Positions 21,814 to 41,093 of a stretch of DNA of 44,114 bases are shown one piece after another. The translations under genes and the position numbers were made by a program. The notes under the pieces were generated by a model that was not told the origin of the DNA, searched no databases, and was given only the letters and a program-made list of their open reading frames with translations. Every line of letters starts with the position of its first letter. The stretch's first letter is position 1. Source of the DNA: Microcaldota archaeon (GTDB taxonomy: Archaea; Micrarchaeota; Micrarchaeia; Micrarchaeales; CABMGC01); NCBI GenBank assembly GCA_021789155.1, contig JAJYJW010000006.1, forward strand, positions 1-44,114, read 5' to 3'.

Positions 21814-22048
21814 GTGGCGTACCGTAGCCTCCCTTCTGTTTTAGGTGGCATTAGACTAAGCGGCCTTGCGGCCTTGCATGCTCATAGCAGATCTGCCTGC
21901 ACGTTTCATCTGCACCCACACGCTCGTATTGTCATAGCTTATGCATGGTAGCAGTATCGTTTCTGTTCAGGCTTCGCACCTTAGGTGCTTGCTGCTCTGC
22001 ATGGGAAGAGCTTCCTCTGCGCTAGGCAGTGAACCACCCGTACGCCAC
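21814..22048 (-). ncRNA. rnpB: RNase P RNA
   Basis: P1 GUGGCGUAC/GUACGCCAC (perfect 9 bp); P2 GGUGG/CCACC; CR-I AGAGGAAGC; P4 AGC(U)CUUCC with GGGAGGCU after the conserved ACAGAA near the 3' end, including the bulged U; CR-II-like ACAGAAACGAUACUG; GGCC-GCAA-GGCC hairpin. Confidence 0.9.
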
Positions 22049-37719: not shown

Positions 37720-39408
37720 TTACATTCGCTTGATTTTGTTTTCAAGGTTCCGGTTGTCTCTTTTAGCATCCATTAAACTATGCGAATTGCTTGAATTGGT
37801 TCTATTTGCCGCTTTAATCTCTATGGCGTTGAGCAGCAATTCATAATCGTTGACGTTTCTGCCCAACGCAGTATCTCCTTTTTTAAGATACTGCAGGAAT
37901 TTGTGAAGGTGCAGCTCTTTATCGAACTCCAGTTCAGTTGGCATTCTATTATTATCATGCAGGAATTCAGTTACTGCATCTATTACCTGGTCTAACCCCA
38001 CTTGGGTGCACCACATATTCCTAAACCCGAGATTTGCCGCCTTGAGTAATTGATTATAAGTAGTTACGTTTTCTCCCAAATAAGATCTACCCTCTTGCAT
38101 AACTTGGAGGAAACCCGCCAACCCGTTCTCTCGCATTTCGCCTTGAGTTGGCACTCTGCCTTTTTCTAGCATAAGGTCGTTTATTGCTGAAAGTGCCTTA
38201 TCATATTCTTCTTTACTGGACCATATCCTAGCAGGATCGGATTCGAATCCTATCGCTTCTATGAATTGGGGATACGTAATTGCTGTTCCTCCAAGTACTG
38301 TTTCCTTGTTTGATAGTGCCTTGAGAAAATCTCCGAATCCCAGTTCTATGAATTTCGTTCTGGAAGGAATGCGCTTGTTATACGCAAAATATCTCAATAT
38401 TGCATCCTTTGCCCTTTCGTAGCCGCTTTCTTTTTCCCAATCTGTTAACTTGATGCCGTTGAACCCGAATCTTTCTATGAATTGCGAATACTTAGTAGTT
38501 TCAAATCCCAAAACTGTGCGGCCTTGCGCTAGCATGACTACGAAACCACCACATCCAGCTTCTCTGACATCTTTTATACGGGGAACTCTGGCATGATCCT
38601 TACTAAATTTCTCTACGAAAGCAAGCACCTCATACAACCCCTCTTCTGTTGTCCATTTGTTTGATTTTGCGTTTTCAAAGCCAATCGAACTTAGAAATTG
38701 AGAGTATGTTTTCACCGAATTGCCTAGATACGTGTTTCCCCTCCTTAAAGCATTCAAGAAAGATGCAGAACACAGGTTTTTCGCTTCGCCATAAGTGGGT
38801 AGTTTCTCATGTTCGTAATAAAATTTATTAATTGCAGAGACTGCGTCATCTAAACTTTTCTTTGAACCTGCATTGTTTGCGGGAATAGATATTCCGGTTG
38901 CAACCAAAAATTCCTTCAGATTTGCAATGCTATCCCCCAATATTGTCTGTTTATGAGACAATGCATTGAAGAATCCGCTAAGGTCAAGCTCATTAACCGC
39001 AACTGAACGGCTTGGCAGTTTCTTGTTTTCGACAATGAACTTTTTAATTTTCTCTGTCGCTTCATCGTAACCTTCCTGAGAATTCCACCATCCTTTAGGC
39101 CGCCTGGAACTTTCTGGCTGATTGACTTCTGGAACGTAATCAGTAAGCCCGGATTCGTCGAAGAATTCTTGAAGATTGGTTGCGTGATTTTCAGCAAATG
39201 AGACTCCTTTAGCCACTGCAAGCAAAAACGCGCTTAATCTCAATTTGGTAATCATTTCGTTATTAGTTGGCAACCTGTTGTTTTCCTTCTTGAATTCCTT
39301 TACTATTGACACTGCTTCTTCGAAGCCTTGCTTGGAATGCCACCATCTATATGGCCTTCTAGCCTTGGAGTTGTTTTGCGATTGCAGTTTGTCAATATCA
39401 GACGTCAT
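37720..39408 (-). CDS. Protein made of seven ~65-72-aa helical repeats; possible modular nucleic-acid-binding protein
   Basis: 562 aa; recurring [LIVM]P(T/S)...sxFlxaLxxgxtxLGxxvxtyxqFlxxiGf core seven times. Confidence 0.85.
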   Translation of the reverse strand: MTSDIDKLQSQNNSKARRPYRWWHSKQGFEEAVSIVKEFKKENNRLPTNNEMITKLRLSAFLLAVAKGVSFAENHATNLQEFFDESGLTDYVPEVNQPESSRRPKGWWNSQEGYDEATEKIKKFIVENKKLPSRSVAVNELDLSGFFNALSHKQTILGDSIANLKEFLVATGISIPANNAGSKKSLDDAVSAINKFYYEHEKLPTYGEAKNLCSASFLNALRRGNTYLGNSVKTYSQFLSSIGFENAKSNKWTTEEGLYEVLAFVEKFSKDHARVPRIKDVREAGCGGFVVMLAQGRTVLGFETTKYSQFIERFGFNGIKLTDWEKESGYERAKDAILRYFAYNKRIPSRTKFIELGFGDFLKALSNKETVLGGTAITYPQFIEAIGFESDPARIWSSKEEYDKALSAINDLMLEKGRVPTQGEMRENGLAGFLQVMQEGRSYLGENVTTYNQLLKAANLGFRNMWCTQVGLDQVIDAVTEFLHDNNRMPTELEFDKELHLHKFLQYLKKGDTALGRNVNDYELLLNAIEIKAANRTNSSNSHSLMDAKRDNRNLENKIKRM

Positions 39409-39488: not shown

Positions 39489-39499
39489 TAGTCTTGAGG
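39489..39499. repeat. 3' half of inverted repeat flanking 16S rRNA (processing stem)
   Basis: TAGTCTTGAGG, exact reverse complement of CCTCAAGACTA at 41083-41093. Confidence 0.75.
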
Positions 39500-39536
39500 T
39501 ATGAATATGCACCTTTTACGCACACATTAAAATATA

Positions 39537-41022
39537 TGAGGTGATCTATCCGCAGGTTCCCCTACGGATACCTTGTTATGCCTTACCCCCCCTCACGAAA
39601 CCATAGTTCGAAAGCGTAATTAGCGCTGCCTCACTAAAGCCCCACTTGGATGAGTTGGCAGGCGGTGTGTGCAAGGAGCTGGGACGTATTCACCGCTCGA
39701 TAGTGACAAGCGATTACTAGGGATTCCAGTTTCATGAGGGCGAGTTTCAGCCCTCAATCCAGACTTTGGTTGGATTTAGGGGATTGGCTTCACATTTCTG
39801 TGTTGCAGCCCATTGTTCCAACCTCTGTATGCCGCGTGTAGCCCTGGAGATTCGGGGCATACTGACGTATCGTTGCCCTCTCCTTCCTCCTACTTAAACG
39901 TAGGCGGTCCCGACAGAGTGCTCCGTATATCACTATACGGGTCGCAACTGTCAGCGAGGGTCTCGTTCGTTACAGGACTTAACCTGACAGTTCACACCAC
40001 GAACTGGCGATCGCCATGCACCACCTCTCGGCTCGTCAGGTAAGATCTTTAGTCTGACCTTCACACTGCCGTCGCTCCAGGTAATGTTTCGGACGTTTCA
40101 TTCAATTAAACCGTAGCATCCACCCCTGGTGTGCTCCCCCGCCAATTGCTTTAAGTTTCAACCTTGCGGCCGTACTCCCCAGGTGGCAGACTAAACAGTT
40201 ACCCTACGGTACTGCAAATACACGAAGTATTCGCAACACCAAAGTCTGCATCATTTACTGCTAGGGCTACTCGGGTATCTAATCCGATTCGTTCTCCTAG
40301 CCTTCGTCACTCACTGTCGGATCCGTTCTGGTCTGGCGCCTTCGCCACCGGTAGTCCTTATAGGATTACAGGATTTTACCCCTACCCCATAAGTACTCCA
40401 GACCTCGCCCGCTCCCTAGCCGAAAGGTATCTTATGCACGCATTGATGTTGAGCACCAATATTTCACATAAGACGGTTTCAGCCAGCTACTGACGCTTTA
40501 AACCCAATAATCGTGGAAACCACTTGTGCTGCCGGTATTACCGTGGCGGCTGCCACCGGTCTTGCCCAGCACTTATTCTCCAAGCTTGCTAAACTTGGCA
40601 AAAGATTTACATATGTAAACCACTCGGACTCCCCCCATCGTGCTTTCGCACAGTGTGGAGTTTTCGCGCCTGCTGCACGCCGTAGCGCTAGGGCCCTTGT
40701 CTCAGTGCCCTTCTCGGGGCTCATACTCCCATATCCCCTACAGGTCAAAGGTATGGTGGGCCATTACCCCGCCATCTGCCTGATCTGACGCAGTCTCATC
40801 GTAAAGCGGAAACGCTGCAATTTGCGTCCCTTTAAACTATGGTTCGTTCCAGAATCCTTAATCTATGGAGTATTAGTCACAGTTTCCCGTGGTTATCCTC
40901 CTCTTTACGGTAGATTGACTACGCGTTACTGAGCCGTACGCCGTCCTATGAAGCCATAGAACAGACTTGCATGGCTGTCGAAATCCGATAGCAGTTCCCT
41001 CCAGCAGCATCGACTGGAGTCG
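39537..41022 (-). rRNA. 16S ribosomal RNA
   Basis: Plus strand reads gatctatccgcaggttcccctacggataccttgttatgcc (3' end), ggcggtgtgtgcaagg, ccgtggcggctgccacc (530 loop); 5' end helix CUCCAGUCGAUGCUGCUGGAG then GGGAACUGCUAUCGGAUUUCGACAGCCAUGCAAGUC. Ends approximate. Confidence 0.97.
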
Positions 41023-41082: not shown

Positions 41083-41093
41083 CCTCAAGACTA
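41083..41093. repeat. 5' half of inverted repeat flanking 16S rRNA (processing stem)
   Basis: CCTCAAGACTA, pairs with 39489-39499. Confidence 0.75.

Follow-up and report, generated by a model that had tools for sequence, protein, structure and literature searches.

A seven-unit repeat protein related to HNH_repeat and lacking a nuclease domain, encoded beside the 16S rRNA gene of a Micrarchaeales archaeon

Beside the 16S rRNA gene of a Micrarchaeales archaeon lies an intact gene for a 562-residue protein with seven tandem repeats that are related to HNH_repeat (PF18780), and with no nuclease domain. The gene is located in a 44,114-nt stretch of contig JAJYJW010000006.1, hereafter the window. 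Non-catalytic modular DNA binding is the most likely role of the protein, and we give this reading somewhat better than even chances, based on the family relation and on the domains to which related repeats are fused.

The repeat array and its genomic setting

The intact reading frame is on the minus strand (Table 1); the plus strand of the same interval contains many stops. A sequence-only reading had described seven tandem units, and the cores that it quoted all occur in the translation. To avoid circularity, an HMM was trained solely on the repeats of other genomes, and this relatives-only HMM recovered all seven units (25.1–47.6 bits each, 270 bits in total), while the best single match in 200 shuffles of the window protein scored 5.7 bits. 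Its matches span residues 23–84, 108–154, 182–243, 252–315, 324–387, 396–459 and 466–527. The anchor-to-anchor spacing of the repeats is 85, 72, 72, 72, 72 and 70 residues. P25 and F39 are present in every repeat. The same reading had envisaged a constant framework with few variable positions, which overstates the degree of conservation, as pairwise identity among the seven repeats is 22–41% (mean 29%). Several repeats match a repeat from another genome as closely as, or more closely than, those of their own array, and judged from such comparisons the repeats are old. The protein is nearly charge-neutral (77 K+R, 73 D+E), a composition that gives no sign of a basic groove. In agreement with the earlier description, none of the domain matches over the 562 residues is a nuclease.

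Table 1 Features of the window, with repeat boundaries in the 562-residue protein and scores of the unit HMM and the relatives-only HMM
Feature	Residues	Position	Strand	Unit HMM (bits)	Relatives-only HMM (bits)	Remarks
RNase P RNA, archaeal		21814-22048	-			RF00373, 94 bits; complete
LAGLIDADG-like ORF, degenerate, 161 aa		37201-37686	-			next gene, separate from repeat protein; member of 16S-linked family
Repeat protein ORF, 562 aa, seven tandem repeats		37720-39408	-			ATG start; no nuclease or other recognised domain
Repeat 7	466-528	37825-38013	-	57.9	37.5	
Repeat 6	396-459	38032-38223	-	65.6	46.2	unit folded by AlphaFold2
Repeat 5	324-387	38248-38439	-	46.3	25.1	
Repeat 4	252-315	38464-38655	-	57.9	34.4	
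Repeat 3	182-243	38680-38865	-	58.3	37.3	
Repeat 2	108-172	38893-39087	-	59.7	43.2	
Repeat 1	23-87	39148-39342	-	61	47.6	
Stem flanking 16S, 3' half		39489-39499	-			perfect 11-bp pairing with 41083-41093
16S rRNA gene, upstream of repeat gene		39536-41020	-			RF01959, 1381 bits, model 1-1478

The 16S rRNA gene of the window is archaeal, intact and intron-free, and the repeat gene on the same strand has its ATG 127 nt past the 3' end of 16S. The gene had been placed directly downstream of 16S, which holds, and about 40 nt beyond one half of a processing stem. The perfect 11-bp stem fits the one proposed and probably is a processing stem, but the ATG is located about 80 nt past its 3' half. EF-1A is 0.65 kb from the repeat gene, and in the genome G077 it lies 1.6 kb from one repeat array, a proximity that may be due to chance in both. 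In two other genomes (G014 and G005) EF-1A comes directly after 16S; in the window, the two are set apart by the repeat gene and its LAGLIDADG-like neighbour. No defence family was detected by PADLOC.

Relation to known repeat families

PF18780 matches the window protein with 29.3 bits (cut-off 26, E 1.1e-6), a score that is the sum of weak repeats with no single strong one. The PF18780 model alone missed the gene in a six-frame search of the genome because single repeats score too low. When window-type repeats were aligned with canonical HNH_repeats by hhalign, the homology extended over the whole unit (53 columns, probability 94.6, score 36.8); none of 100 column shuffles scored above 15.8. 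The resemblance to HNH_repeat suspected at the outset is supported by both results, whereas the description of the scaffold as undescribed conflicts with the match above cut-off and with the existence of canonical long arrays with and without a nuclease. The two forms share tandem modules, a GR-x-PT turn and a C-terminal motif of the FG-x-[SY]-[WY]-N-x-x-L-x-x-AG type. They differ in unit length (about 70–72 residues in the window protein, about 52–65 in HNH_repeat), with residues added behind the second helix, ahead of the C-terminal motif, and the window protein further stands apart by its low score per repeat and the lack of an HNH domain. An attached nuclease is usual and not obligatory for this homing endonuclease associated repeat, and the DNA binding ascribed to HNH_repeat derives from its association with homing endonucleases.

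The pseudomurein-binding repeat PMBR (PF09373) scores slightly higher against the window protein (32 bits, cut-off 24.9). Its match is limited to residues 188–206, which comprise the first helix with its NGR-x-P turn, and reaches neither the second helix nor the C-terminal motif; the PMBR profile of PeiP from phage psiM2 aligns with the unit over 26 columns (score 24.0). Since PMBR covers only the first helix and turn while HNH_repeat aligns over the full unit, the window repeat is a divergent, longer-unit form of HNH_repeat, found here in Micrarchaeales.

The comparison with TALE/PPR-type modular binders was rejected at the sequence level: a unit of 72 residues compares with 33–36, the identity among repeats is as low as given above, and there is no two-residue code. 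Variability of window-type repeats, measured as entropy, is spread over many exposed positions, and the likeness comes down to tandem helical repeats, an analogy only.

Unit consensus and predicted fold

The unit consensus, built from 59 units of eight proteins, reads W-T-x-x-E-G-[LVF]-D-x-A-x-x-x-I-K-x-F-x-x-x-N-G-R-x-P-T in its N-terminal part and continues after P-T as x-x-E-A-x-x-E-L-G-L-G-G-F-[IL]-x-A-x-x-x-G-x-[LF]-x-x-x-G-[IV]-x-[ST]-Y-N-D-L-L-K-x-A-G. For repeat 6 with 29 aligned units, AlphaFold2 predicted a confident three-helix fold (mean pLDDT 92.8, pTM 0.76) with helices at 4–21, 27–43 and 56–62. A module would be a compact unit in which a long amphipathic helix leads through the 'GR-x-P-T' turn into another long helix, with the third, a short one, in the 'Y-x-x-F/L-L-x-x-x-G' segment. 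The model of four repeats is floppy and leaves the arrangement of the units undefined (pLDDT 70, pTM 0.34); the second helix is broken in two of the four units of this low-confidence model and continuous in the better single-unit model.

Fold searches with the single-unit and the four-repeat model returned no significant match in either case, the latter search being uninformative for so floppy a model. The only PDB fold match of the unit was the helical domain of DsrC/TusE (7syb, TM 0.61 by query length, E 3.4, not significant), and the DsrC/TusE profile scored 24.5 against the unit (shuffles at most 18.5). DsrC (2xsj_C) was also the low-confidence best template in published work that gives a fold model, and no function, for HNH_repeat (PMC8078820). 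Unlike DsrC/TusE, the window unit has no conserved cysteine arm and no sulfur-relay context, and the likeness is a weak lead only. Among PDB sequences, the unit profile found LexA (E 0.08) and sigma-28 (E 0.8) as its best matches, both weak; the part of the unit that LexA and sigma region 3 resemble is its first helix and turn.

Relatives in Micrarchaeota

Relatives of the array vary in length from about 2 to 17 units, and some are fused to other domains. At least one match to the unit profile occurs in 14 of the 302 genomes of the phylum. G077 ('Candidatus Micrarchaeaceae archaeon'), from the same order as the window, encodes one protein with 16 units in 1219 residues and another with at least 17 in 2128, and others have two to four units. 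Scans of named genomes brought up nothing closely related to the window protein; with the A5 profile, the Micrarchaeaceae genome G077 was the only one matched. Its 2128-residue protein (L040, contig C9), encoded near EF-1A, has, besides the HNH_repeat-type units, an HTH-like part at its N terminus and a SAM methyltransferase at its C terminus. A single unit stands ahead of tandem HTH_38 domains at locus L054 and ahead of a sigma-70 region 4 HTH (Sigma70_r4) at L058, and two units are fused to a possible ATPase in G006 (weak Pfam matches). Repeat arrays cross-match Pfam LexA_DNA_bind above cut-off, and seven related Micrarchaeota repeat proteins have a pI of 8.9–10.1.

The sequence-only reading had suggested a check of whether the gene always follows 16S. 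It does not: in all five other genomes in which both could be placed (G077, G072, G223, G076, G214), the repeat genes and 16S lie on separate contigs. A possibly contaminating contig (G124 C23, L056), from a genome placed in the same class, carries a sigma-70-like factor and an RRM protein of bacterial appearance, and the region 3-like stretch of this locus matches the unit profile weakly.

Canonical arrays in haloarchaea and Bacillus

With a related array as query, tblastn against plasmids reached haloarchaeal proteins annotated 'HNH endonuclease' and a hypothetical protein of Bacillus subtilis; tblastn of phage records found no relatives. These canonical arrays comprise seven repeats with HNH, fourteen without a nuclease match, five with HNH and six with HNH. 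The protein of Halomontanus rarus (WP_337653229.1) resembles the window protein in its seven tandem repeats and near-equal length (554 residues) and differs in its C-terminal HNH nuclease (35 bits), canonical HNH_repeats (426 bits) and acidity (pI 4.96). The Bacillus subtilis plasmid protein (WP_259608181.1) shares a long array without a nuclease match, whereas its fourteen HNH_repeats (733 bits) are canonical and far more uniform, its pI is 10.1 and its host belongs to a different domain. This strongly basic protein of 824 residues has an integrase nearby on its plasmid (NZ_CP103996.1, L066).

The LAGLIDADG-like family at 16S

The neighbouring LAGLIDADG-like ORF has family members in 81 of 99 relatives (homologues including L019–L038 and L071–L097). 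From a comparison of family positions with 16S positions, the ORF lies inside a 16S intron of about 480–510 nt in at least nine genomes, at one site (position 1051 of the window 16S, between the exon sequences GGTTAAGTCCGGTAA and CCGGTAACGAACG); example introns start and end with sequences complementary to each other. In about 20 genomes it is free, downstream of 16S on the same strand at distances from about 120 nt to 6 kb. Two 16S genes that look split, in G058 and G049, were dismissed, as they run out at contig ends. Archaeal rRNA group I introns with LAGLIDADG ORFs have been described, including one at Micrarchaeota SSU position 1498 (PMC6125680).

Some members of the family have weak Hom_end or LAGLIDADG_3 matches. 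The motifs of the window copy are YLAGVSYQG and YFGGIFDSRG; most aligned relatives have Y-[VIL]-AG-[MI]-FD-[AS]-x-G and a second motif without the catalytic acid. At the positions that we take, from established knowledge of the family, to be catalytic, the window copy has no acids. In a tree, it forms a long branch whose sister is the G014 copy encoded in an intron (95/95); the family shows about six changes between the intron and the free state. The ORF keeps company with 16S across the order, now intronic, now just behind the gene, a point separate from the repeats.

Discussion

The window protein is an array of seven divergent modules of the HNH_repeat type (PF18780), free of a nuclease, that would most likely bind a long stretch of DNA non-catalytically, as beads on short linkers. 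Such an array would equal the targeting part of HNH_repeat homing endonucleases minus the cutting domain and would act as a regulator, blocker or adaptor. We infer DNA binding, as well as any sequence specificity and the cellular role; the main circumstantial argument for DNA binding is the fusion of relatives to HTH, methyltransferase and possible ATPase domains. Nucleic-acid binding as such is plausible from the HTH fusions together with the likeness to HTH sequences. The LexA_DNA_bind cross-matches and the pI of the seven related Micrarchaeota proteins also speak for DNA binding. Counting against it are the near-neutral charge, the second helix, continuous in the single-unit model without a clear helix-turn-helix break, and the lack of a significant fold match. 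A stricter version, in which each 72-residue unit of a nuclease-free Micrarchaeota array would read a few base pairs, about 2 to 17 units would set the target and partners (HTH, methyltransferase, possibly ATPase) would be swapped, seems to us quite improbable.

The position of the gene, close behind 16S on the same strand and possibly on a shared transcript, would also suit an RNA-binding factor, for example one that acts on 16S pre-rRNA and is encoded beside its substrate gene. Such a factor is unlikely: where both could be placed, repeat genes are away from the 16S contig, the restriction of the unit to 14 genomes is a poor fit to a general rRNA factor, and the 16S-linked gene here is the LAGLIDADG-like neighbour rather than the repeat gene. 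Equally unlikely, in our estimate, is that the gene is what remains of a mobile HNH_repeat homing endonuclease after loss of the nuclease, and that it persists next to 16S as cargo, either decaying or selfish. The repeat gene has a patchy distribution, the canonical relatives sit on plasmids (those of haloarchaea have HNH domains, and the one of Bacillus has an integrase close by), and the degenerate ORF next door is related to a 16S intron ORF, all of which speaks for such a remnant; the reading frame is nevertheless intact over 562 residues, core residues are kept in all seven units, and arrays without a nuclease occur repeatedly, in several genomes as well as in Bacillus, so that loss of the nuclease need not equal decay. 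Binding to proteins or to the cell surface, be it as a PMBR relative or as a protein scaffold, is the least probable of these possibilities. It could account for the PMBR score slightly above that of HNH_repeat, but the PMBR alignment spans about half as many columns at a lower score, and the window protein matched neither a peptidase nor any other surface domain.

The window protein is of an ordinary kind, HNH_repeat, in an unusual form: a long unit, no nuclease, highly variable array length and a place in Micrarchaeales. The targeting module of homing endonucleases exists in Micrarchaeota as free-standing, nuclease-less arrays of widely varying lengths and, should each unit read DNA individually, would constitute a natural modular binder.
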